Source: an uncultured bacterium (GTDB lineage Bacteria; Verrucomicrobiota; Lentisphaeria; Victivallales; UBA1829). From it: 64,000 nucleotides of DNA. This document shows, piece after piece, positions 34,362-56,352 of this stretch. Positions within the stretch are counted from its first letter, which is position 1. Every line of letters begins with the position of its first letter. The translations under genes and the position numbers were made by a program. The DNA lies in NCBI GenBank assembly GCA_949297765.1, contig CASFTV010000020.1, positions 1 to 64,000 on the forward strand, in the 5' to 3' direction. The notes beneath the pieces are model-generated. The model saw nothing but the letters and a program-made list of their open reading frames with translations. It was not told where the DNA came from and ran no database searches.

Positions 34362-34436
34362 GCGGGCGTAGCTCAGTGGTAGAGCATCACGTTGCCAACG
34401 TGATGGTCGAGGGTTCGAATCCCTTCACCCGCTCCA
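34362..34436 (+). tRNA. tRNA-Gly (GCC), copy 1
   Basis: A 75-base gene with encoded CCA. Anticodon stem TCACG/CGTGA around loop TTGCCAA gives anticodon GCC; the T-arm is GAGGG-TTCGAAT-CCCTT. The acceptor is GCGGGCG with CACCCGC, so pair 6:67 is a C-A mismatch while the other six pairs form. Reads glycine codons GGC and GGU. Confidence 0.97.
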
Positions 34437-34456: not shown

Positions 34457-34531
34457 GCGGGCGTAGCTCAGTGGTAGAGCATCACGTTGCCAACGTGATG
34501 GTCGAGGGTTCGAATCCCTTCACCCGCTCCA
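34457..34531 (+). tRNA. tRNA-Gly (GCC), copy 2
   Basis: Identical to copy 1 over all 75 bases including CCA and the C6-A67 mismatch; separated by 20 bases and likely cotranscribed. Seven T residues follow immediately (34532-34538), which may end transcription. Confidence 0.97.
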
Positions 34532-44314: not shown

Positions 44315-44356
44315 TTCCGCCGTCGTCCGGAGACCGTTCAACGGGCGACGGCGGAA
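44315..44356. repeat. 11-bp inverted repeat between feoB and flavoprotein gene
   Basis: TTCCGCCGTCG at 44315-44325 pairs perfectly with CGACGGCGGAA at 44346-44356 across a 20-base loop that itself contains short complementary parts. It spans the convergent gene ends, so it could end transcription from both sides, though there is no T-run. Confidence 0.45.
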
Positions 44357-45702
44357 ATGGCGTGTTCGAAAATGCGGCGGATCAGTTCCCGTCGCGGACA
44401 CTCCGGAAGCGCCAGTGCTTCCCGGTATCCGAGTTCGAGCTCTTCGCGGGAGCTGAGCGGATCGAACCGGCGGTCGAGAAGTTCGGCCGCGGCTGGGAAA
44501 AAGTCCGCAGGTTCGGACACAGGAGAGAATGCGGCGGATCCGTTTCCCGCAGAGGAGTGCGTTGCCGCGTAATGCGCCGCCGAATGTCCGGCAATCCGGC
44601 CGAAGACGAGCACTTCCAATCCGGCATTGCCCCCGAGCCGGTCCCGTCCATGGAGTCCGCCCGCCGCTTCGCCCGCCGCGAACAGACCGGGAATCCGCGT
44701 GGAGGTGTCCGGCGCGATCCGAATTCCCCCGAGCGTTGTGTGCGCACCGGGACGCACTTCAAAACAGAGATCGTTGAACCGCGGTGAAAGGCGCTGGAAG
44801 CGGGCATGATATTCGGGATATTTCCGGGCGAATGCCGCTTCGTCGACGTCTCGGAAGTCGTAGAGAATTCCACCGTGCGGACCGCCCCGTCCCGCGCGGA
44901 TCTCGCGCAGAATGCGTTCGGCAAGCTCCCGTTTCCGCGGGACTGTCTCTCCCGGTGCAAGAAGGGATTCGCCGCGGCCGTTCCGAAGTTTCGCTCCTTC
45001 ATGAAGGACGGTCGTGATGACCGGAAAACCGGAAAGACGGGCCGGATGGACCGTGACCGTCGGTTCAAACTGTACGAATCCGGGATCGCGCAGTTCACCT
45101 CCGGCCTCCAGCGCGAGCAGAGCGCAGTCTCCGCGCAGATTCTTGCTCCATGTGCTGAATTTCCAGAGACCGGCGAATCCGCCTCCCGCCAGAATGACCG
45201 CTTTGCAGCGGATGAATTCGCCGTTTTCACACCACGCCCCGCGGACTCCCTCCGCATCGACGAAAAGGTGGACGATCCGGATCGGTTCCGTCCGGACCCG
45301 GAGGCGTTCCAGCACCTGCTTTCCCGTTGTCGTTCCCGAGTGGACGACGCGCGGACAGGAGGAGCCGACCGCGTTGACCGTGTCGAACCGTCCGTCCGGC
45401 GTGCGGTCGAAGACGATTCCCATGCGGATCAGCCGCTCCAGTTCGGGGATCGCCCGTTCCGCAAGAACCCGTACCAGATCCGGATCGGAGAATCCTCCGC
45501 CGGAGCGCAGTGTGTCCTGCCGGAAAAGTTCCGGGGAGTCCGGCGGATTCACCGGAGCGGAAAATCCCATGATCTCGCTTGACGCGCCTCCGCCGGCATC
45601 GGCTGTGAGAAGGCGCAGTGCCGGATCAAGATCGCGGATCTCCGCCGCCGCGCAGCATCCGGCAAGACCTCCGCCGACGATCAGAATGTCGCACTCCCGC
45701 AT
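44338..45702 (-). CDS. FAD-binding fumarate reductase/aspartate oxidase-like flavoprotein
   Basis: A 454-residue flavoprotein. ILIVGGGLAGCCAAAEI is the FAD Rossmann loop, VVHSGTTTGKQVLERL the SdhA/NadB-like second block and GAHTTLGGIRIAPDTSTRIPGLFAAGEAAGGLHGRDRLGGNAGLEVLVFG the capping signature. It is shorter than SdhA or NadB at the C-terminus. As last gene of a sugar-acid operon, it may oxidise a sugar-derived acid or dehydrogenate a C4 acid; the substrate is unknown. ATG at 45702 follows GGGAG. Confidence 0.8.
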   Translation of the reverse strand: MRECDILIVGGGLAGCCAAAEIRDLDPALRLLTADAGGGASSEIMGFSAPVNPPDSPELFRQDTLRSGGGFSDPDLVRVLAERAIPELERLIRMGIVFDRTPDGRFDTVNAVGSSCPRVVHSGTTTGKQVLERLRVRTEPIRIVHLFVDAEGVRGAWCENGEFIRCKAVILAGGGFAGLWKFSTWSKNLRGDCALLALEAGGELRDPGFVQFEPTVTVHPARLSGFPVITTVLHEGAKLRNGRGESLLAPGETVPRKRELAERILREIRAGRGGPHGGILYDFRDVDEAAFARKYPEYHARFQRLSPRFNDLCFEVRPGAHTTLGGIRIAPDTSTRIPGLFAAGEAAGGLHGRDRLGGNAGLEVLVFGRIAGHSAAHYAATHSSAGNGSAAFSPVSEPADFFPAAAELLDRRFDPLSSREELELGYREALALPECPRRELIRRIFEHAISAVAR

Positions 45703-45725
45703 TGCAGGCTCCCGGTGTTTTCCGT

Positions 45726-47393
45726 TCAGAATTCCCAGACCGCTCCGTTGGCGAGCGATCCCGCATTTCTGGCAAACAGGCGCAGGAACGGCGGAATTCC
45801 TGTCGGATCGAATTTCCACGACCACTTTTTCCGACGTTCCTCCAGTTCCGATTCCGGAACGTCGAGGTCGAGGGTTCGTTCGTCGAGATCAATGCGGATT
45901 CTGTCGCCGTCCTGTACCAGCGCGAGAGGACTTCCCAGCGCGGCTTCCGGAGAGAGATAGCCGATCGAAAGTCCGCTGCTGCCGCCGGAGAATCTTCCGT
46001 CGGTGACGATTGCCACATCGTGCGCCAGTCCGCGTCCCTTCAGCTCCTTTTGGAACTGGTAGGAGGTGGTCCCGAACGCCCCTTTCGGCCCGAGGTACCG
46101 GAGAACGCAGACATCGCCTTTCCGAATTCTGTTCGCATCAAGTGCGTCAAGCGCGGAACGGAGCGAGTCGAAACATTTTGCCGGCCCGCGGAATTTCCGC
46201 ATCGACTCCTCCACCGCCGCGGCCTTGATGATGGCTCCATCGGGAGCAAGCGTCCCGTAGAGAACATAAAGCGCTCCCTCCCGCGAGACGGGATTTTCCA
46301 TCGGACGGATGATCTCCGGATCGAAGACAACGGCGTTTGCGCAGTTCTCCGCAAGAGTTTTCCCGGTGACCGTGAGCGCATCTCCGTGAAGTTTCGGCAT
46401 CAGGGTTTTGAGAATCGCGCGCGATCCGCCGGCCCGGTCGATCTCCTGCAGATGCCACGGTCCGCTCGGAGAGGCCCCGACCAGCTGCGGAATTTCGCGG
46501 GATGCCCGGTCGAAATGAGCCCACCAGCGGTCGCGCAGTCCCGCCTCGCTCGCGATCGCGGGAAGGTGCATGAAGAGATTGGTTGATCCGGCGGTCGCCA
46601 TGGTGATCGCGATTGCGTTGTCGATCGCTTCGGGTGTGAGGATCCGGCGTGCGGTGATGCCGTCTTCCAGAAGTTTCATGATCTGCCGTCCCGCCCGGTA
46701 GGCGGTCTGCAGCAGTTCGGAGGAGACCGCCGACATGCAGCCGTTGCCGGGAAGCGTCATCCCGAGCGCCTCCGCCGCAAGGCACATGCTGTTGGCGGTG
46801 GTCATGACGCCGCATGCGCCGCAGGGGGTGTACATCCGTTCGACTTCCCGTTCCGCCTGTTTCCGGTCGTATTCGCCCTGCATGGCTTTTCCGACGTTGT
46901 CCGTGAGTTCGATGTAGTTGACCGCTTTTCCGTCGAGGAACGGCATGGGCATGTATCCGCCCGTGACGAGAATGGCCGGAATGTCGAGCCGCGCGGCCGC
47001 CATCAGATGGCCGGGTACGATGGAATCGCAGGTGGAGAGCAGGACCATCGCGTCGAACATGTTGGCTTCGACGATCAGTTCCACCTCGTCCGCGATGCTG
47101 TTGCGGCTCGGAAGTTCGATGTAGCGCGGATTCTTCAGAACCATGCCGTCGCAGATTCCGCTGGTCATCACTTCGAAGGGGAGTCCGCCCGATTCCCGGA
47201 TTCCCTGTTTCACCCGTTCCGCCAGAGTCCGCAGATGGACATGGCCCGGATTGTATTCATTCCACGAGTTCACAACCGCGATGAGCGGACGGCGGAACTC
47301 CTCCTCCGTATAGCCCATTCCGCGGACCAGTCCCCGCCGGCACTCTCCCGCCACGCCGTAGGGAATTTCACTGCGTTCGTTGCATTTTTGCAT
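45726..47393 (-). CDS. IlvD/Edd-family dehydratase lacking the CDK lysine
   Basis: A 555-residue iron-sulfur dehydratase. ICDGMVLKN, STCDSIVPGH and CGACGVMTTANSMCLAAEALGMTLPGNG supply the three cluster Cys; VTDGRFSGGSSGLSIGYLSPEAALG holds the catalytic Ser and the metal Glu. The motif usually reads CDKxxPG; here it is CDS, losing the Lys that is carbamylated and binds Mg in structurally known sugar-acid dehydratases. Position in a sugar operon favours an aldonate dehydratase over branched-chain synthesis. ATG at 47393 follows GAGGTGA. Confidence 0.85.
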   Translation of the reverse strand: MQKCNERSEIPYGVAGECRRGLVRGMGYTEEEFRRPLIAVVNSWNEYNPGHVHLRTLAERVKQGIRESGGLPFEVMTSGICDGMVLKNPRYIELPSRNSIADEVELIVEANMFDAMVLLSTCDSIVPGHLMAAARLDIPAILVTGGYMPMPFLDGKAVNYIELTDNVGKAMQGEYDRKQAEREVERMYTPCGACGVMTTANSMCLAAEALGMTLPGNGCMSAVSSELLQTAYRAGRQIMKLLEDGITARRILTPEAIDNAIAITMATAGSTNLFMHLPAIASEAGLRDRWWAHFDRASREIPQLVGASPSGPWHLQEIDRAGGSRAILKTLMPKLHGDALTVTGKTLAENCANAVVFDPEIIRPMENPVSREGALYVLYGTLAPDGAIIKAAAVEESMRKFRGPAKCFDSLRSALDALDANRIRKGDVCVLRYLGPKGAFGTTSYQFQKELKGRGLAHDVAIVTDGRFSGGSSGLSIGYLSPEAALGSPLALVQDGDRIRIDLDERTLDLDVPESELEERRKKWSWKFDPTGIPPFLRLFARNAGSLANGAVWEF

Positions 47394-47402
47394 GGACTCA
47401 CC

Positions 47403-49127
47403 TCAAAGCCGGGTCATGGAGTACGGCGGATACGTTTTGCCGTCCAGTTCGCACGTCTCGCCGCCCAGGTTGAAGACCAGAACCGAGCCGTCGGAATAGG
47501 TGATCCGGAAGAGCTGATTCTCCTTCCGTTCCTCAAATTCTTCCATGAATTCGTACTGGAGATCGCTGATTGTGCGGTAGCGGTCGTAGTCGCGTTTGAT
47601 TTTCGCCACGTCCGCCGCAAGCTGTTCGGGGGTGCCGAACCGGAGGTCCTCCTCGCCCATCCAGTTGGTGCCCGAGGAGCGGAATTTCGCAAAGAAGTAC
47701 GACAGCGGCCGGCCGCCCCATGCCAGATTCAGAAGCGGAAGAACCGGATCGGATTTGATGCTGGCGTTCACCGTGTCGCAGAACGTGTTGTAGAGAACGA
47801 TTCCGTGGTACACCACATGCCAGAACGGAATGTGCTTATCGACCAGCGGACGTTCAAATTCGCCGTTCCGGTGGAAGACCGTGTAGAGAACATAGTCAAG
47901 ATCGCCGATGCAGAAGTCCCACGATCCCTCCGACGCGCTTGCGCCGACCTTCTCCCGGGCGAGCGCCAGCGTTTTCCCCCTCCAGATTCCCGCTTCCTTC
48001 CGGTTCAGCGGATGACGCGGATCGTAGCATTTCACCGGACGCAGAATGCTCATCACATCCAGATAGTGGGTTCCGCGGAAGCCGAGACGCTGCATGTCGT
48101 TCATATCCTGCTCCGCGTACTCCTCGTGTGCCTTCTTCGGACAGAGATAGTAGGAGTTTCCGCCGCCCCAGTTGCCCTGCTGATGGAGCGAGCCGTCCTT
48201 GTCGCGCAGGCAGTTTTCCTCCCGCCAGCGCCGGGCGATTTTGTACGAATCGAGCAGATTGGTGTGCGCGCTGATGAGGTAGCCGTAGCGTTTCGCCTTT
48301 TCCGTGACGCGCTTGAGTCCCTCCTCGCCGCCGAGCAGGGGTTCCACGGGGAAGAGATCGGGGAAGCGCCCGTCGTGTCCGGATTTGTTCCAGCCCACGA
48401 GGCAGAACTCCGCATGTTCGATTCCCTGTTTGTGGAATTCATCCAGAATCTGTTCGCACTGTTCGAAGGTGATTGCCACATGGATCGGCGGCTCGGTCTC
48501 CTCGGTCTGATCGGGAACAGGGGAGGGGACCGGTTTCCACGCCAGACGGACCCGCACCTCCGGTCCGAGCGCGGCTTCTCCGACTACCGGAAAGCGCTTC
48601 ATCCGCTCGCGGATCGGCGTGCAGGCGTTCCGCTCCAGCTGATAGCGCCGATAGCGCCGCGCGGCGCCGCACCAGCTTGCTTCGGAAGCGGTCAATTCGA
48701 AAAAGCGCACCTCAAGATCTTCGTATGCGCCTTCCCCGTTCAGGAGAAAACGCGGGAACATGTAGTAGAATCCGTCCCGGATTCCGGTCATCAGGCTGTA
48801 TTCGAGCGACATGCCCGAGACGACCGCAAGAAATGCGCTTTTCCCGTTGTGGAACACATACAGCGGCATGTCGTTGCAGTCGAATTCGATCTCCTGTTCG
48901 GCGCGCGGACGGAAGAAAATCTGTCCGGCATGTCCGTCGTTGTCGATGCTCGGAACCACATAAAACCCTTCGGAAGAGATTGCCGCTTTGCAGAAATCCG
49001 GAAGAAAATCCACGGATTTCGTCTCCGCCGGAATTTCTTCTTTGCGGAGAATTGCGCGGTTCCCGTTCATGACAACCGGAATTTCGCGTTCGGTGCCGTC
49101 CTGCATTCGGAGAATTGCTGTGTACAT
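47403..49127 (-). CDS. Putative glycoside hydrolase-like protein (DUF5696-like)
   Basis: A 574-residue cytosolic protein. Residues about 1-210 look beta-rich; about 230-480 look like a TIM barrel (EHAEFCLVGWNKSGHDGRFPDLFP, YLISAHTNLLDSYKIARRW, GTHYLDVMSILRPVKCYDPRHPLNR with possible acidic residues), then a C-terminal beta domain (LFRITYSDGSVLVFNLGGETCELDGKTYPPYSM). It resembles DUF5696-type proteins related to GH101 barrels; I am not certain. It lies between the IlvD/Edd and SDR genes in one operon, so it may release the sugar used there. Confidence 0.62.
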   Translation of the reverse strand: MYTAILRMQDGTEREIPVVMNGNRAILRKEEIPAETKSVDFLPDFCKAAISSEGFYVVPSIDNDGHAGQIFFRPRAEQEIEFDCNDMPLYVFHNGKSAFLAVVSGMSLEYSLMTGIRDGFYYMFPRFLLNGEGAYEDLEVRFFELTASEASWCGAARRYRRYQLERNACTPIRERMKRFPVVGEAALGPEVRVRLAWKPVPSPVPDQTEETEPPIHVAITFEQCEQILDEFHKQGIEHAEFCLVGWNKSGHDGRFPDLFPVEPLLGGEEGLKRVTEKAKRYGYLISAHTNLLDSYKIARRWREENCLRDKDGSLHQQGNWGGGNSYYLCPKKAHEEYAEQDMNDMQRLGFRGTHYLDVMSILRPVKCYDPRHPLNRKEAGIWRGKTLALAREKVGASASEGSWDFCIGDLDYVLYTVFHRNGEFERPLVDKHIPFWHVVYHGIVLYNTFCDTVNASIKSDPVLPLLNLAWGGRPLSYFFAKFRSSGTNWMGEEDLRFGTPEQLAADVAKIKRDYDRYRTISDLQYEFMEEFEERKENQLFRITYSDGSVLVFNLGGETCELDGKTYPPYSMTRL

Positions 49128-49147
49128 GGTGTTCTGTCCTTATGGTG

Positions 49148-49951
49148 TTATTTTTCGTATGCTTCGAGCATGGAGTCGATGCCGCCGTCGATGGACTGCC
49201 CCCCGTCGATCACGAAGGTCTGCCCGGTGATGAAGGCGGATTTTTCGTCGTCCGCCAGAAACAGCATCAGCGGGGTGATGTCGTCGACGCTTCCGAGCCG
49301 TCCGAGCGGAATTTTCCTCAGAAACGCATTCATATCCGCTTCCGAATACCGGCTGGAAAGTTTCGTCAGAATGAAGCCCGGCGCAATGCCGTTCACGTTG
49401 ATGCCGTATTTGGCCACTTCGCATGCCAGAGCCTTCGTGAACATGTTGAGTCCGGCCTTGCCCGGCGAGTAGGGGAGAAGTTTCCGCTTCACCCAGGTGA
49501 CCATGCTGTGGATCGAGCTGACATTGATGATTTTGCCGCGTGTTTTGCGGTCGATCATATCCCGCACCGCGATGCGCGAGGTGTAGGCCGCCGCATTCAG
49601 GTTGAGATCGATCTGTTTGTTCCAGTAGTCCAGCGGCATGTCGATGAAGCCTCCGCGGGGGATCTGGAGCGCTCCGCCCGCGTTGTTGATCAGAACGTCG
49701 ATGCCTCCGAACCGCCGGATGAAGCTGCCGACCATCGTTTCGCAGGCGGAAGCGTCGCTGACGTCCGCCGGATAGATCTCCGCATCGCATCCGAGAGAGC
49801 GGATTTTGGCGGCGGTCTCCTCCGCTCCTTCCGGGTTCCGGTTGCAGTTCAATCCGATGGCGCAGCCCTCTTTCGCAAACGCAAGAGCCGTCGCCGCACC
49901 GATCCCGTGCGACGATCCCGTAATCAGAACCCGCTTTCCTTTCACGCTCAT
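49148..49951 (-). CDS. SDR-family sugar dehydrogenase-like protein
   Basis: A 267-residue short-chain dehydrogenase. VLITGSSHGIGAATALAF is the cofactor loop, VLINNAGG the NNAG motif, INVSSIHSMV the catalytic Ser and YSPGKAG the YxxxK pair. It resembles glucose 1-dehydrogenase; together with the IlvD/Edd dehydratase, oxidation of an aldose to an aldonate is plausible. ATG at 49951 follows AAGGAGAA. A promoter and operator-like dyad lie just upstream. Confidence 0.9.
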   Translation of the reverse strand: MSVKGKRVLITGSSHGIGAATALAFAKEGCAIGLNCNRNPEGAEETAAKIRSLGCDAEIYPADVSDASACETMVGSFIRRFGGIDVLINNAGGALQIPRGGFIDMPLDYWNKQIDLNLNAAAYTSRIAVRDMIDRKTRGKIINVSSIHSMVTWVKRKLLPYSPGKAGLNMFTKALACEVAKYGINVNGIAPGFILTKLSSRYSEADMNAFLRKIPLGRLGSVDDITPLMLFLADDEKSAFITGQTFVIDGGQSIDGGIDSMLEAYEK

Positions 49952-49994
49952 GAGTTCTCCTTGTATTCTTCCTCTTTTTATCATGTTTGATATA

Positions 49995-50023
49995 AATATA
50001 TTCACCTTGCAGCTGAATGCAAG
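49995..50023 (-). promoter_or_regulatory. Internal promoter with operator-like dyad
   Basis: On the minus strand TTGCAT (50022-50017), 16-bp spacer, TATATT (50000-49995). The inverted repeat CTTGCA-N6-TGCAAG (50006-50023) overlaps the -35 box. It lies in the 89-base gap between the ROK gene and the SDR gene, a natural site for control by the ROK protein. Confidence 0.6.
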
Positions 50024-50040
50024 TCTCCGATCTGAAAAAG

Positions 50041-51177
50041 TCAGAAGAATTTTTCGTATGCGAGGCGGGCTGCGCCGATCGCGGCCTGATGCGGTCCGAG
50101 ATTGGTGATGTCGAGATGGCAGTCGCGCCGTTCTTCGGGGAGGATTTCTTTGAGTTTTTCGATGGTTTTCCGGAAGAGATATCCGTCGGGCCTGCTCTGT
50201 CCGCCGGAGAAGATCAGGGCTTCCGGAGCGTAGAGCTGGATCATGGAGGCGATGCCGATGGCGTTGTAGGAGGCCGCGGTGTCCAGAATGGCGGCTGCGT
50301 CGGGATCTCCGTTCGCGGCGGCGCGGTCGAGCGCGGGCGCCGAGTGCAGTTCCGGCCGGTCCGGGAGCTGTTCCGCCGCGATCCGGGCAAGATAGTTCGC
50401 TCCGGAATACGATTCCAGACATCCTTTGAATCCGCAGGTGCAGACATGGTTGTTGTTCGGGATGAGAATGTGTCCGATATACCCGACCGGCCGCTTCGGA
50501 TGGCTGATCAGCAGAAGATGGTTCGCCACGATGCCGGAGCCGATTCCGACGCCGAGTCCGATGTTGACCAGATTTCCGCATCCGGCCCGTTTTCCGAACC
50601 GGTATTCCGCGCAGACCGCGCCGACCTGTGTCGTGACCGCGTACACCGGAAGCCCGATCCGTTCCGAAAGCCCGGAGACCGGGATATTGGTCCCGAACTT
50701 CATTCCGAAGTTGCCGCCCGAGACGAGAATTCCGTTGTCCGAATCCACATTTCCTGAAACCGCCAGTCCCAGCGCATGGATTTTGCTCCGGTCCAGAGCG
50801 CTTTCCCGCACCCCGGTTTCGAAAATTTCCTCCGTCCGTTCGAGGAAGCGTTCCCGGCTCCGGAACGGTTCCGTCGCGCACTCCGTCCGGTAGAGGACAT
50901 TGAAATTCATGTCGCAGAACACCAGTTTCGTGTAGGCCGCGCCGATGTCGATTCCGCAGAAGGAGGCCGAGTCCGGATTGACGCACAGCGGAACGACCGG
51001 CCGTCCCGGCGCATGCGGCTTTTCCCGTCGGGCAAAGAGATATCCGCGTTTCAGCAGGGAGTCCGTCACCTTGCACATCGTTCCCCACGAGAGTCCTGTG
51101 ATCCGCTGGATCTCCTTCTTCGGGACGTTGTTCCGTCCGCTCCGGACGGCGTCCATCACTTTGACATTATTCGACAT
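50041..51177 (-). CDS. ROK-family transcriptional regulator
   Basis: A 378-residue NagC/XylR-type repressor. The N-terminal 70 residues are a winged helix-turn-helix (VPKKEIQRITGLSWGTMCKVTDSLLKRGYL); the rest is a sugar-kinase-like ROK fold with FCGIDIGAAYTKLV, GLGVGIGSGIVAN and the zinc motif CTCGFKGCLES. No kinase-only signature contradicts a regulatory role. It overlaps the MBL gene by 11 bases and precedes the SDR operon whose promoter carries a dyad. Confidence 0.92.
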   Translation of the reverse strand: MSNNVKVMDAVRSGRNNVPKKEIQRITGLSWGTMCKVTDSLLKRGYLFARREKPHAPGRPVVPLCVNPDSASFCGIDIGAAYTKLVFCDMNFNVLYRTECATEPFRSRERFLERTEEIFETGVRESALDRSKIHALGLAVSGNVDSDNGILVSGGNFGMKFGTNIPVSGLSERIGLPVYAVTTQVGAVCAEYRFGKRAGCGNLVNIGLGVGIGSGIVANHLLLISHPKRPVGYIGHILIPNNNHVCTCGFKGCLESYSGANYLARIAAEQLPDRPELHSAPALDRAAANGDPDAAAILDTAASYNAIGIASMIQLYAPEALIFSGGQSRPDGYLFRKTIEKLKEILPEERRDCHLDITNLGPHQAAIGAARLAYEKFF

Positions 51178-52057
51178 CCATTCCCCATTCTCTCCGGTAT
51201 TCCCGGACCGTGAAAAGCGCCATGAACAGATATGGCGGCATTGTGCCCCCGAGCGCGCGGATCAGATACTCCGCCTCGTCCGCCGGATCGGTGATTCCCT
51301 TCTCCAGCGCCTCCCGGATAAGTATACCGTATTTTTCCGTTAATTCAAGCGCTTCTTCGATCATTTTCCGTGCATTTTCCCCGTTCAGGACCGCCGTTCC
51401 CCACGGCAGATAGGCGTGTCCGCAGATCACTGTGCGGACATCCTCCGCGAGCAGACGGCGGAGCGCATTCCGGTAGCCCGGAAGATCCATACACAGTCCG
51501 CATCCCTGCAGTTCGGTTCCGTTGCCCTGGATCGAATCGCCCGCGATCAGCGTTCCGCTGACGGTGTCGAGAAAGCAGACGCAGTCGGAATCGTGTCCCG
51601 GCGTGTGGAGAATTTTCAGTCCGCCGACCACGTCTCCATCGCGGAATGTGAAATCCGGTTCGATTCCCCGCAGTCCCGCGGAGGGCGGCGGACTGTGCCG
51701 CGGAAACGGCGCACGGATGCGTTTGTTGTATTTCAGCGGATCGCGCAGCTTCTCCGCTCCCGACTCAAATACACCGAACCGGAGATCCTTCCGAAGTTCC
51801 CGAAGGCGGCAGTGTCCGCCGACATGGTCGCCGTGCGTGTGCGTGCAGAGCACCGCCGTGAGATCTCCGAGTCCGATCCCTTCCGCCTCCAGTGCCGGCA
51901 TCAGCGTCGAATCGACCGCTTCCGCCGACGCTCCCGAATCAATCAGAATCTTCTCTCCGCTCGTCCGCCGGATCAGCACAACACCGCTCCAGCTGCCGCA
52001 GAACGGCGTTTTCAGCAGCGCGGCCGATTCGTTGATCCATTCAAAGCGCTCCGTCAT
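51167..52057 (-). CDS. Metallo-beta-lactamase fold hydrolase
   Basis: A 296-residue MBL protein. LCTHTHGDHVGGHC is the metal-binding signature, LHTPGHDSDCVCFLD, LIAGDSIQGNG and ICGHAYLPWG supply further His/Asp ligands. A helical C-terminal region of about 60 residues follows. The substrate is unknown; lactonase or thioesterase-like roles are possible. ATG at 52057 follows GGAGAGG. It is the first gene of the minus-strand island operon. Confidence 0.88.
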   Translation of the reverse strand: MTERFEWINESAALLKTPFCGSWSGVVLIRRTSGEKILIDSGASAEAVDSTLMPALEAEGIGLGDLTAVLCTHTHGDHVGGHCRLRELRKDLRFGVFESGAEKLRDPLKYNKRIRAPFPRHSPPPSAGLRGIEPDFTFRDGDVVGGLKILHTPGHDSDCVCFLDTVSGTLIAGDSIQGNGTELQGCGLCMDLPGYRNALRRLLAEDVRTVICGHAYLPWGTAVLNGENARKMIEEALELTEKYGILIREALEKGITDPADEAEYLIRALGGTMPPYLFMALFTVREYRREWGMDVE

Positions 52058-52073
52058 TTTTTCCCTCTCCTTC

Positions 52074-52101
52074 TTGACTTTTTCCATCCGTCGTGTATAA
52101 T
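52074..52101 (+). promoter_or_regulatory. Promoter of DUF1116/epimerase operon
   Basis: TTGACT at 52074-52079, 16-bp spacer, TATAAT at 52096-52101, 41 bases before the ATG. It overlaps the minus-strand promoter. Confidence 0.78.
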
Positions 52102-52126
52102 ATAAATCGAAGTTGATATAATTCAA
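52099..52126 (-). promoter_or_regulatory. Promoter of the MBL-ROK island operon, overlapping the divergent one
   Basis: On the minus strand TTGAAT (52126-52121), 16-bp spacer, TATATT (52104-52099). Its -10 box shares bases with the plus-strand -10 box, so polymerase cannot occupy both at once. Confidence 0.6.
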
Positions 52127-52142
52127 GCGAAAGGAGAGGAAA

Positions 52143-53360
52143 ATGCAGGAAGCCAATCAAATTGCGTTTGATCGTCTGATCTCGGCGCGTCCGGTTCTGG
52201 ACGGATGCGGAAAAGCGGGGGAGCGGATTCCCGGGTTCCGGAGGAATCTGATTCTTCATTCGGGGCCTCCGGTGGAGTTTGCCGCAATGCGCGGGCCGCA
52301 TCGGAACGGCGTGATCGGCGCGGCTCTTTTTGAAGGCCTGGCAGACAGCGAATCGGAGGCGGTCGGCATGATCGAATCCGGGGAGATTGAGCTGGGATGT
52401 GCGAACGACTGGAACTCCGGCGGCCCGGGGGCGGGCATCACTTCGTGGTCGATGGCGGTGCTGACCGTCACGGAGCGGAACAGCGGAACGCGCGCCTTTG
52501 CCGCGCCGATCGAAGGGCCGTTCGGCGGAGGTCTCGGCGGATGGGGCGTCTACAATGAGAAGCTCGGCGAAAACCTCCGCTGGATGGGGGAAACCTTCGC
52601 TCCGCTTCTGGATCAGGCTCTGAAAGCGGCGGGCGGAATCAATATCGCTGAACTGTTTGCCTCCGGTCTGCTGATGGGCGACGAGGAACATACGCGGCAG
52701 GTCGCGACCGACCGTCTTTTTCTTTCCTCTCTGATCGACCCCCTGATGAATTCGCCTCTCTCCGATGCGGAGCAGCTTCTTCTTCTGCGGTATCTGAATT
52801 CCTGCCGGCGGTTTGTGCATCATGTCGGCTGTGCTTCGGCGGTCGCCTCGCTGAAATCCGCGGCGAATGTGCCCGGATCGACTCTCATCACGGCGATGGG
52901 CGGGAACGGCGTCGAATTCGGCGTGAAGGTCAGCGGACGCGGAGAACGGTGGCATACGGCCCCCGCACCGACCTTCCGCGGACGCTGTTTCCGTCCGTCC
53001 GACTCGCTGGATGATGCTGCCCCGTGGCTCGGCGACAGCTCCAATGTCGAAGCCTGGGGACTCGGCGGCATGGCCGCGGCCGCGGCCCCCGCTCTTCTCG
53101 CCGAGCGCGCCGAAACCCCCGCCGACGGCATCGCCCAATGCACGGAAATGGCGAAGATCTGTTTCGGACGCAATCCGCTGTTCCGGATTCCTCTTCTTCC
53201 GGAAACCTGTACTCCCGCCGGGATTCTGGCGGAGCGGGTGGCGGAGCTGGGGATCGTTCCGAAACTGCACGGCGGTATTCTCTCCCGCGTGACCGGAGGG
53301 CAGATCGGCGTGGGCTATGCCGGCGCTCCCCTGGAATGCTTCCGGAAGGCGCTCCTCTGA
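52143..53360 (+). CDS. DUF1116 (YahG/YlbE, AllG-like) protein
   Basis: A 405-residue protein of the DUF1116 family: LHSGPPVEFAAMRGPHRNGVIGAALFEG, CANDWNSGGPGAGITS and ITAMGGNGVEFGVKVSG are typical blocks. Family members normally stand beside FdrA-like and AllH-like partners in carbamoyl-oxamate metabolism, none of which is present here. A role in the neighbouring sugar pathway is therefore unclear. ATG follows AAAGGAGAGG. Confidence 0.85.
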   Translation: MQEANQIAFDRLISARPVLDGCGKAGERIPGFRRNLILHSGPPVEFAAMRGPHRNGVIGAALFEGLADSESEAVGMIESGEIELGCANDWNSGGPGAGITSWSMAVLTVTERNSGTRAFAAPIEGPFGGGLGGWGVYNEKLGENLRWMGETFAPLLDQALKAAGGINIAELFASGLLMGDEEHTRQVATDRLFLSSLIDPLMNSPLSDAEQLLLLRYLNSCRRFVHHVGCASAVASLKSAANVPGSTLITAMGGNGVEFGVKVSGRGERWHTAPAPTFRGRCFRPSDSLDDAAPWLGDSSNVEAWGLGGMAAAAAPALLAERAETPADGIAQCTEMAKICFGRNPLFRIPLLPETCTPAGILAERVAELGIVPKLHGGILSRVTGGQIGVGYAGAPLECFRKALL

Positions 53361-54307
53361 TGCCGTACCGGGTCGAACACGGGCGCGTGCTGTTCGAGAC
53401 ATCCGGATGGCTTGGCGAAATCGCTCTTGCCTCCACCGGAAATCTGATTCGTCTGCACCATCGGCCGACGGGGATGGAGATCTTCCGTTTTCCTGTGCCG
53501 GAGGCGGAGCTCGCGGATCATCCCGCGGTCTTCGGAATGCCGCTGCTGCTGCCGCCGAACCGGATTCGCGACGGCGTTTTCTCCGCCGGAGGACGGATCT
53601 TCCGCTTCCCGGTCAATGAAGCTGCGACAAACTGTTTTCTGCACGGCCTCTTTCTGGGCCTTCCGTTCGAACTGACCGCGGCTTCGGAATGCGGATCGTC
53701 GCTTCTGTTCCGGCTTTCCCGCGCGTTCACCGCCGATGACGTCCGCTTTTCCGGCTTTCCGTGCGAATTTTCCGCCGAGATTGTCTATGAGCTGACCTCT
53801 TCCGGCCTGTCGCACCGCCTGACCATCCGGAACCGGGGAGGGGAATCCATGCCGCTCGGCGTCGGATTCCATACCGCGTTCTGCACGCCGAAGTCCGAAC
53901 ATGTGACACTCGACATTCCCCGCGACCCCTCCGGACCCTGGGCGGTTCACGCGCTGCGCCGTCTCCCTTCCGGAGAGAAACGTCCGTGGACGCCTGCGGA
54001 GGAGGCTCTTCTCTCCGGCCGGAAAAGCGTGGAGGGAATCCCCGTTTCCGCGATGTTTTCTCTTCCGGAAGCGGCGCGCACCGTCCGCATTTACCGGAAA
54101 AACGGGACGGTCCGCTACGAACTGGATCCCCTCTATACGCATCTTGCCTGCTGGAACGACGGCGGAACAAAGGAGTTTTTCTGCATTGAACCGATGAGCT
54201 GGATGACCGATGCACCGAATGTTCCGCTCCCCGACCGGATCACCGGATTTTCCATGCTTCCGCCGGGATCGGCGCGGACCTTTACTTCTCTCCTCTCCGT
54301 GGAGTGA
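53360..54307 (+). CDS. Aldose 1-epimerase family protein
   Basis: A 315-residue galactose-mutarotase-like protein of beta-supersandwich fold. HGLFLGLPFELTA supplies the first His, LGVGFHTAFC the catalytic-type His and FFCIEPMSWMTDAPN the Glu. It interconverts sugar anomers, fitting the sugar operon. The ATG shares one base with the DUF1116 stop (TGATG), so the two are coupled. Confidence 0.86.
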   Translation: MPYRVEHGRVLFETSGWLGEIALASTGNLIRLHHRPTGMEIFRFPVPEAELADHPAVFGMPLLLPPNRIRDGVFSAGGRIFRFPVNEAATNCFLHGLFLGLPFELTAASECGSSLLFRLSRAFTADDVRFSGFPCEFSAEIVYELTSSGLSHRLTIRNRGGESMPLGVGFHTAFCTPKSEHVTLDIPRDPSGPWAVHALRRLPSGEKRPWTPAEEALLSGRKSVEGIPVSAMFSLPEAARTVRIYRKNGTVRYELDPLYTHLACWNDGGTKEFFCIEPMSWMTDAPNVPLPDRITGFSMLPPGSARTFTSLLSVE

Positions 54308-54334: not shown

Positions 54335-55192
54335 TCACTTTGCGAAGAAGCGGGCGAAAATTCCGGCGGGAAGCTGCCGCGTTCCATCCGCTTCGGGAAT
54401 GAGCATTTCGCCGCATTCGATCTGCCCGGCGCTCTCCGGGAATACGGAGGCGAGGCAGCGGCCGAGCGAGACCGGCGAAAATCCCTGCGAATGACAGCTC
54501 AGAAGGAGAAAGTGCGGTTCGTCGAGATTCAGGATGGCGCGACAGTCGGTCAGCAGTTTTTCGAGTCCCTCTTCGATCTTCCAGATCTGCCCCTGCGCGC
54601 CGCGTCCGAAACTGGGCGGATCAAGCGCGATTCCGTGATAGCGGTTCCCGCGCCGCGCCTCCCGCGCCGCAAATTTGAGCGCATCGTCACAGATCCAGCG
54701 GACGCGGTTCTCCGTTTTCGGATTCAGCGCCTGATTTTTCTTTGCCCATTCGATGATTCCTTTCGAGGCATCGAGATGACAGGCCTCCGCGCCCGCTTCC
54801 GCCATGGCGAGGGTCGCTCCTCCGGAATAGGCGAAGAGATTGAGAGTCCGGGCGTGTCCGGGAATCCGGGCGATGCAGCTGCGCATCCAGTCCCAGTTCG
54901 GCGCCTGCTCGGCGAAGAATCCGAGATGTCCGAAGTTGGTCGGCCGGGCCAGCAGAGTGAGTCCGCCCCAGGCAAGATGCCACTCCTCGGCGTGTTTTCG
55001 TTTCCAGTTCCAGATTCCGCCTCCGGAGGATTCCCGGTGAAATTCGGCGTCGGCCTTCTCCCATTCGGAGCGGGGCAGGGCCGGTTTCCAGAATGCGTTC
55101 AGCGCCGGACGGATGATCCGGTAGGGACCGGCCTGTTCCAGTTTTCGGCAGTTGCCGGAGTCGAGAAGACGATAGGGGAGAAGATGTTCCAT
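54335..55192 (-). CDS. SAM-dependent methyltransferase, RlmI/RlmK-like
   Basis: A 285-residue class I methyltransferase. LNLFAYSGGATLAMAEAGA is the SAM loop, RWICDDALKF the acidic site and GIALDPPSFGRG the DPPS catalytic motif of RlmI/RlmK rRNA cytosine or guanine methylases. The usual N-terminal PUA domain is missing. Its ATG overlaps the nagA stop (TAATG). Confidence 0.86.
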   Translation of the reverse strand: MEHLLPYRLLDSGNCRKLEQAGPYRIIRPALNAFWKPALPRSEWEKADAEFHRESSGGGIWNWKRKHAEEWHLAWGGLTLLARPTNFGHLGFFAEQAPNWDWMRSCIARIPGHARTLNLFAYSGGATLAMAEAGAEACHLDASKGIIEWAKKNQALNPKTENRVRWICDDALKFAAREARRGNRYHGIALDPPSFGRGAQGQIWKIEEGLEKLLTDCRAILNLDEPHFLLLSCHSQGFSPVSLGRCLASVFPESAGQIECGEMLIPEADGTRQLPAGIFARFFAK

Positions 55193-56352
55193 TATTCTTC
55201 CGCCTTGTAGACGATGCGGCCGCGGATGACGGTCATTCGCACTTTATTGGTGTTGAGGTCGAGGAACGTGATATCGGCCTTTTTCCCGGGCTTGATCTCG
55301 CCGCGCGTGATGAGTCCGAGGTCGTGGGCCGGATTGCTGGTGAAACAGGCGGCTGTGAGCGTATCGGGCATGCCGGAGTAGTTGGTGAAGTGGAGCCATC
55401 CGGTTTCCAGGGTTGTCGCGGCTCCCGCGATGATGCCGTCGCTGGTGAGGACCGCTCCCTCCTCAAGGACGGTTCCGTGTTCCGCGGATGCGTGCACCCC
55501 GTTGCTGACGCCGATGAGCTTGTCCGCCGGTTTGACCCTGCTGGCGAGATCCACCATCCGCGGATGCAGATGGCAGCCGTCTGCGATGATCTCCACGGAG
55601 ACCCGGTTGTCCGTGAGCGCGATCAGCGTCAGATCGGGCCGTCTCTGATGGAGCGGAGGCATTCCGTTGAAGAGATGGGAGCATCGGCGCGCTCCCGCGT
55701 CGATGGCGTTGAGAACCTCTTTTTCCTGCGCCATGCTGTGTCCCATGGAGGGGATGACGCCGTTTTCCAGCATCAGCTGGATCAGTTTGTCGGCCCCGGC
55801 GATTTCAGGCGCGAAGGTCATCAGTTTGATGCGTCCCCGGCCGGCCGCGATGAGTTCCGCCGCGAAGACGGGGTCGAACGGATAAATGCACTCCTTCGCC
55901 TGCGATCCCGCCTTTTCCGGATTGATGAAGGGTCCTTCGATGTGGATGCCCGCGGGATCGGCGCCGTCGTGTTCCTGTTCGATCATGGAGGCGAGGATGT
56001 CCGCGGTTTTCACCATTGCGTCTTTCGGGGCGGAGGTCATGGTGGGGAAGAAGGTCGTGACGCCGTGGGAGGCGAGATCGACCGACATCCGGTTCATCAG
56101 CGCATTGTCGTTGACCAGAGCGCGGGAGGCGTCGAATCCTCCGGCTCCGTGCACATGGCTGTCGATGAATCCCGGGACCGCGTAGGCACCTTTCAGCGCG
56201 ATGATCTCCAGCCCCGGCTCCCGGACGAACGCGGATGCTCCTCCGGTGGCGATGATTTTATCCCCTTCACAGAGAATCGCGCTGGATGGAATATTCTCGT
56301 GCGGGGTCAGGCAATGGTCTGTCAGAAACAGTTTTCGGTTTTTCGACGGCAT
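55192..56352 (-). CDS. nagA: N-acetylglucosamine-6-phosphate deacetylase
   Basis: A 386-residue amidohydrolase. PGFIDSHVHGAGGFD carries the HxH metal site, GIHIEGPFINPEKAGSQ the Glu ligand, SMGHSMA and CSHLFNGMPPLHQR the His residues, and SNGVHASAE-type loop is present; the final Asp is in LTSDGIIAG. It removes acetate from GlcNAc-6-P; NagB is not in the window. Promoter on the minus strand at 56405-56434. Confidence 0.93.
   Translation of the reverse strand: MPSKNRKLFLTDHCLTPHENIPSSAILCEGDKIIATGGASAFVREPGLEIIALKGAYAVPGFIDSHVHGAGGFDASRALVNDNALMNRMSVDLASHGVTTFFPTMTSAPKDAMVKTADILASMIEQEHDGADPAGIHIEGPFINPEKAGSQAKECIYPFDPVFAAELIAAGRGRIKLMTFAPEIAGADKLIQLMLENGVIPSMGHSMAQEKEVLNAIDAGARRCSHLFNGMPPLHQRRPDLTLIALTDNRVSVEIIADGCHLHPRMVDLASRVKPADKLIGVSNGVHASAEHGTVLEEGAVLTSDGIIAGAATTLETGWLHFTNYSGMPDTLTAACFTSNPAHDLGLITRGEIKPGKKADITFLDLNTNKVRMTVIRGRIVYKAEE

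Follow-up and report, generated by a model that had tools for sequence, protein, structure and literature searches.

Non-phosphorylating breakdown of L-fucose, L-rhamnose and pentoses by Route III runs through a sugar dehydrogenase, a lactonase, a dehydratase and a second oxidation, at C4, before cleavage to pyruvate and an acid. The 2,4-diketo-3-deoxy acids of such pathways are formed by an NAD-dependent 4-dehydrogenase (FucF/LRA5) and split by a hydrolase (FucG/LRA6) (PMC11199699, PMC6336799). In allantoin fermentation, the AllFGH enzyme, oxamate carbamoyltransferase (OXTCase), turns oxalurate into oxamate and carbamoyl phosphate (PMC11326118). Here we describe eight genes at positions 44338-54307 of a 64,000-nucleotide stretch from an uncultured bacterium of the Lentisphaeria (contig CASFTV010000020.1, positions 1 to 64,000; hereafter the window) that combine features of both systems. 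We read them as a unit under ROK control that breaks down a rare aldose, in which a flavoprotein carries out the second oxidation and an AllG protein cleaves the resulting 2,4-diketo acid, a reading that we hold tentatively and give somewhat less than an even chance.

Open reading frames and Pfam matches showed eight uninterrupted genes, arranged as two groups that diverge from each other. In order of transcription, the minus strand encodes an MBL-fold hydrolase, proposed as an aldonolactonase (51167-52057; Lactamase_B, 2.1e-23), a ROK-family transcription regulator (50041-51177; ROK, 1.4e-35), an SDR proposed as an aldose 1-dehydrogenase (49148-49951; adh_short, 2.5e-49), a GH129-like glycosidase, GHL (47403-49127; DUF5696, 2.7e-32), an IlvD/Edd-family aldonate dehydratase (45726-47393; ILVD_EDD N and C domains, 4.6e-106) and FLAV, a soluble FAD dehydrogenase of about 455 residues resembling SdhA, FrdA and NadB (44338-45702; FAD_binding_2, 2.4e-39). 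The plus strand encodes AllG (52143-53360; PF06545, formerly DUF1116, 1.6e-55) followed by an aldose 1-epimerase, or mutarotase (53360-54307; Aldose_epim, 4.8e-24). The ROK and MBL genes overlap by 11 bp and the epimerase ATG overlaps the AllG stop codon (TGATG), so that both pairs are coupled. The cluster has a GC content of 0.58-0.62, while most of the window lies at 0.53-0.61; the term island, if taken to mean foreign DNA, need not be invoked. All eight frames are open and belong to the families that an earlier, sequence-only reading of this DNA had assigned to them, and the eight genes are one regulated unit.

To describe the distribution of the cluster, we refer to the window genome (98.4% complete) as G000 and to the other genomes and loci compared, which were annotated by tblastn, by G- and L-numbers. 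The gene set recurs in three congeneric genomes (L008-L010, L051), in G038, G050, G055, G222, G326, G202, G127 and G291 and, outside the phylum, in Clostridia (L012, L149, L150, L151, L152, L155). In the fullest locus, L149, genes for MBL, AllH, an acetate-kinase homologue (AckL), AllG, AllF, FLAV, IlvD/Edd and SDR are consecutive, flanked by an epimerase gene and, as assigned by eye, a putative glycosidase gene and transporter-like genes. In a 388-genome sample of the phylum, 14 genomes carried a signature FLAV, 12 of them together with AllG, whereas AllG was present in 16 of the 374 others (Fisher p = 1.2e-13, a value that ignores kinship and therefore overstates the independence of related genomes); the Clostridia provide an independent case of the same co-occurrence. 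Gene order kept so far beyond the genus argues for more than chance neighbourhood. GHL is shared by G222 (L054), G038 and G202, with L028 and L112 among the loci that carry it, an epimerase is found in most relatives, and ROK is found in Lentisphaeria. The enzymatic core consists of FLAV, IlvD/Edd, SDR, MBL and AllG, and the sugar-release end varies. Conserved gene order in Lentisphaerota, on which the sequence-only reading had staked itself, thus holds and extends to Clostridia.

The flavoprotein was aligned with E. coli FrdA, SdhA and NadB, and residues are given in FrdA numbering. It shares with these enzymes the FAD_binding_2 family and residues His355 and Arg390, retained in all 24 cluster copies, but differs from them in the remainder of the active site: His232 is Glu, Arg287 is Lys and Arg248 is Leu or Phe (Leu in the window) in every copy, Glu245 is Thr in all but two copies, which have Ser, and the covalent-FAD His44 is lost. 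Among the positions H232, R287, H355 and R390, two of four are therefore changed in each cluster protein and the standard dicarboxylate set is incomplete, while two homologues not linked to such clusters (L063, L154) are standard at these positions. In fumarate reductase, one carboxylate is bound by His355 and Arg390 and the second by His232, with proton transfer falling to Arg287. With His355 and Arg390 kept and His232 lost, the FLAV substrate should keep one carboxylate and differ at its other end, a pattern that suits a monocarboxylate carrying a polyol tail. A search of Clostridia found the Glu variant in seven matches, six of which were accompanied by further cluster genes, while the last (L153/L134) lies next to a GHL gene where its contig ends; the remaining readable matches have His at position 232, and four examined neighbourhoods of non-Glu matches held no cluster genes. 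Judged by these residues, FLAV is a distinct SdhA/NadB subfamily. A structure model of FLAV (pLDDT 67, from 4 sequences) was too poor for interpretation. In G127 the signature flavoprotein (L053, 7539-9608) is fused to a carbohydrate-binding CBM9 domain. Related proteins of Amidohydro_2 type lie upstream of FLAV in two Clostridia (L152, 10427-11398; L153, 3990-4895), and L153 also carries a PfkB kinase that may act on KDG.

Pfam now lists the former DUF1116 as AllG, which is one of the subunits of the E. coli OXTCase. The sequence-only reading had reported both a DUF1116 protein and an SdhA/NadB-like flavoprotein, and both are present as named, but the identity of DUF1116 with AllG and the altered active sites of FLAV and of the dehydratase had escaped it. 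The window AllG is about 36% identical to enterobacterial AllG-family proteins, and its model (pLDDT 88.5) has a sole PDB match, 3CLQ (TM 0.93), with no more distant fold relatives emerging from this structure-model search of the PDB. G000 has one AllG gene, no AllF at E 1e-6 and no AllH within the cluster, a genome-wide AllH search not having been made. AllG likewise occurs without detectable AllF, at the same threshold, in G001, G002, G003, G038, G222 and G326. In a phylogenetic tree the solo AllGs form a clade (100/100 support) apart from AllF-associated AllGs and from E. coli AllG and YahG, and they retain the invariant MGDExHxR and GDSxxxE motifs. In G050, G055, G127, L149, L150, L152 and L155, by contrast with these solo genomes, the sugar-acid genes are accompanied by AllF as well as AllG, and such AllF-type clusters contain AckL wherever the contig reaches, and often AllH too.

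The kinase is a further difference from the allantoin system. Carbamate kinase follows AllFGH in allantoin-type operons (E. coli K-12, Enterococcus gilvus and an E. coli plasmid), and yahEFG is accompanied by the carbamate kinase yahI, whereas sugar clusters with AllF have the acetokinase-family protein AckL in its place. AckL, which lies outside the window, belongs to the Acetokinase family (3.1e-96) and has propionate kinase as its best solved match, but unlike acetate and propionate kinases it has a changed acyl pocket, and R91 is replaced by K in the GHR motif and D148 by E in the FDT motif in 13 of 13 members compared; both residues are unchanged in the controls, E. coli AckA and L123, a homologue not linked to such clusters. 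Taken together, the kinase exchange and the altered sites are most simply explained if the substrate of AckL is an acyl phosphate and not carbamoyl phosphate, though probably not acetyl phosphate. The AllFGH/AllK system is thus matched by the AllG family here and by AllF, AllG and AllH beside a kinase in relatives, but sugar-acid genes take the place of allantoin genes, an acetate-kinase homologue that of carbamate kinase, and in G000 AllG stands alone. AllG-AllF-AckL clusters without the IlvD/SDR/MBL set occur in rumen and gut Clostridia (L013-L027), where they hold a MOFRL glycerate kinase, a GarR-like reductase, a 2-hydroxyacid dehydrogenase, a GHL6-type hydrolase and an alpha/beta hydrolase, and probably represent a second sugar-acid pathway using the AllFG-kinase module.

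In the dehydratase, the CDK motif reads CDS in 20 of 20 cluster copies (the window gene and 19 relatives). The lysine of this motif serves, in carbamylated form, as a ligand of the metal ion. The genome holds three IlvD/Edd paralogues, of which the two others, like the solved relative 6OVT, read CDK, and the exchange of Lys for Ser across phyla can be taken as the marker of a dehydratase subfamily. The SDR has the motifs TGSSHGIG and YSPGK (YxxxK), and its nearest solved structures by score are FabG-like SDRs and glucose 1-dehydrogenases; the MBL protein has the metal motif HTHGDH, and the epimerase has H95, H171 and E274 in the expected contexts. A profile of four GHL homologues matches the GH129 alpha-N-acetylgalactosaminidase NagBb (5WZN, 1.5e-29). 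The match covers the barrel domain but is distant, the Pfam family is DUF5696, and alpha-glycosidase activity is putative. No signal peptide was obvious by eye in GHL, which is therefore probably cytoplasmic. Beside AllG in L011/L114, L028 and L112, a protein of about 200 residues with no Pfam match replaces the epimerase.

Between the two gene groups, the two-way promoter that had been proposed is borne out by a sigma-70-like AllG promoter on the plus strand (TTGACT-16-TATAAT, 52074-52101, 11/12 consensus positions) and by opposing sites on the minus strand (52126-52097, 9/12 matches); five promoter-like sites were observed in this stretch, against 0.6 in shuffled sequence. The palindrome TWTATCA-N4-TGATAWA has three matches in the window, counting both strands, against 0.23 expected by chance. 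One copy, TTTATCATGTTTGATATA (49977-49994), is in the ROK-SDR gap and is proposed as ROK operator 1; the other, TAAATCGAAGTTGATATA (52103-52120), has one mismatch, is in the MBL-AllG gap and is proposed as operator 2; it sits between the promoter elements for the two directions and overlaps them. A variant of the pattern with a 5-base spacer had no matches, leaving the spacer at 4. The palindrome is present at these two promoters in seven other genomes: both gaps carry it in L008, L009, L010, L028 (more weakly), L029 and L033, and the corresponding gaps of G222 (L113) do likewise. In G127 the sugar genes and AllF-AllG-AckL-AllH are 3 Mb apart, with one palindrome before MBL and one before AllF, a link between the AllFGH and sugar operons that does not depend on gene order. 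The ROK protein has the zinc motif CTCGFKGCLE (pattern CxCGxxGCxE). Control by ROK, as suggested from the sequence alone, thus gains support from a conserved palindrome at both promoters; the palindrome is likely the ROK operator, and ROK would repress both directions from the two sites. One further perfect operator-like site in the genome (C44:8329-8346, L174) precedes a GH88 gene in an IclR-type sugar cluster; we do not claim it as a regulon member because a control pattern also yields one match and the site may be chance.

From these data we infer the order of steps, the intermediate and the cleavage chemistry as follows. The GH129-like glycosidase would release the sugar, the epimerase would mutarotate the released aldose, the SDR would oxidise it at C1 to a lactone, the MBL protein would open the lactone to the aldonate, and the IlvD/Edd protein would remove water to give a 2-keto-3-deoxyaldonate, each as judged from family membership. 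FLAV would then take hydrogen from C3 and C4 to give the enol of a 2,4-diketo-3-deoxy acid, a dehydrogenation whose analogue is the side reaction of succinate dehydrogenase from malate to enol-oxaloacetate (PMC10825186). AllG would split this beta-diketo acid in a retro-Claisen reaction, releasing pyruvate together with a short acid. The link of AllG to 2,4-diketo acids lies in shape, since oxalurate (H2N-CO-NH-CO-COO-) is isosteric with a 2,4-diketo acid (R-CO-CH2-CO-COO-), oxamate with pyruvate, and carbamoyl phosphate with an acyl phosphate. In G000, AllG without AllF would act as a hydrolase, using water; in relatives, AllF-AllG-AllH would use phosphate instead, giving pyruvate and an acyl phosphate that AckL would convert to ATP. 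The sequence-only scheme of sugar release, mutarotation, oxidation, lactone opening, dehydration and a second oxidation fits the families, but it lacked the cleavage step, the operator and the AllF, AllH and acetate-kinase partners.

Compared with Route III, the cluster has SDR, MBL and IlvD/Edd genes together with their motifs, the dehydratase lacking the CDK lysine, and would similarly yield pyruvate and an acid. It differs in that an SdhA-like flavoprotein and not an NAD enzyme is proposed for the second oxidation and AllG for the cleavage, with a phosphorolytic variant and a kinase proposed in relatives. A second SDR that could serve as an NAD-dependent 4-dehydrogenase is lacking in the window cluster, which has one SDR only; an SDR of the second type was found only in L056/L057, L152 and L155. 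Within the literature covered, which was partial, we found no report of an FAD-dependent 4-dehydrogenase or of diketo phosphorolysis.

Several observations weigh against this proposal. E. coli OXTCase activity requires all three Alls, leaving the activity of a solo AllG unproven; FLAV has no visible electron-transfer partner; loss of the CDK lysine means that the chemistry of the dehydratase may differ; and G241 and G257 have FLAV without AllG. Both of the latter genomes have an FAH protein, which would fit replacement, and an FAH-family hydrolase was found neither in the window cluster nor in six solo-AllG genomes. FAH proteins do occur in AllF-type genomes and elsewhere in G000, however, and for this reason their absence is only suggestive of replacement. 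Finally, some clusters with FLAV and AllG contain aldolases, Eda in L012, L058, L151, L152 and L155 and a DHDPS-family aldolase in L060, so that in some carriers a 2-keto-3-deoxy acid could be cleaved by aldol chemistry without FLAV or AllG.

These aldolases, and the fact that known pathways run aldolase and diketo routes in parallel, are what one would expect of an ordinary non-phosphorylative Entner-Doudoroff pathway with FLAV and AllG serving a side branch or a second substrate; we consider this unlikely, as aldolases are missing from most Lentisphaeria clusters and from L149/L150, which nonetheless keep FLAV and AllG. A different order or chemistry, in which FLAV acts on another intermediate (or as an enoate reductase) and the CDS-type dehydratase gives a different product whose C-C or C-O bond AllG cleaves, strikes us as similarly improbable. 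The missing electron acceptor speaks for it, as do the Lys-to-Ser exchange and the rewired FLAV and kinase sites, which mark unusual substrates, but the carboxylate clamp of FLAV is kept and the isostere argument ties AllG specifically to 2,4-diketo acids. That AllG retains a carbamoyl or oxamate role and is divergent from the sugar operon by chance would accord with its identity to the enterobacterial proteins and with OXTCase as the sole proven activity of the family; it is nonetheless very improbable given the absence of AllF from the genome at E 1e-6, the operator that AllG shares with the sugar genes, their common operon in unrelated bacteria and the acetate-kinase homologue in place of carbamate kinase. 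The idea that the genes are chance neighbours belonging to no single pathway has no observation in its favour and is refuted as far as genome comparison goes, since the gene set recurs across phyla and an identical operator pattern marks both gaps; we give it practically no weight.

As to the sugar, alpha-L-fucosidase (GH29) genes adjoin the cluster in G001 (L009) and G222 (L054), making L-fucose a possible, if somewhat doubtful, substrate of the window cluster. A search of G000 and of full-cluster genomes turned up no MOFRL glycerate kinase, which fits L-fucose, as its conversion to pyruvate and lactate needs no further kinase. Glycerate as the released acid in Lentisphaeria was set aside because this kinase is missing; lactate or glycolate, neither of which calls for a kinase, is as likely. 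In the rumen Clostridia without FLAV and IlvD/Edd, the AllG-AllF-AckL genes with MOFRL glycerate kinase and GarR-like reductase fit glycerate from a hexose.

Elsewhere in the window, the adjoining minus-strand genes at 54335-56352 encode an RlmI/RlmL-like methyltransferase and an N-acetylglucosamine-6-phosphate deacetylase (NagA); they were not seen with the cluster in relatives and were left out of it. Tandem tRNA genes at 34362-34433 and 34457-34528 have an identical Rfam score.

Plausibly, the cluster encodes a version of the established diketo-acid (Route III) pathway, to which relatives would plausibly add a new reaction. The AllG fold is an orphan, and the one function so far established for it is in the final step of allantoin fermentation. 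In these clusters AllG, AllF and AllH gain a second setting, one that makes clear chemical sense, and the solo AllG lets the subunit be studied alone. The clusters also assign a testable function to a new subfamily of SdhA-like flavoproteins and to a kinase that would otherwise be annotated as an acetate kinase. We suggest, with some hesitation, that AllG-family proteins may be C-C cleaving enzymes for beta-diketo acids, which with AllF and AllH would carry out a phosphorolytic retro-Claisen reaction to an acyl phosphate that yields ATP through AckL, and that oxamate carbamoyltransferase may be an offshoot of this chemistry into nitrogen metabolism. If true, phosphorolytic C-C cleavage of 2,4-diketo-3-deoxyaldonates would be a previously undescribed reaction and a case of substrate-level phosphorylation in sugar fermentation, by which anaerobic gut and rumen bacteria would gain ATP from sugar acids at the point of C-C cleavage.

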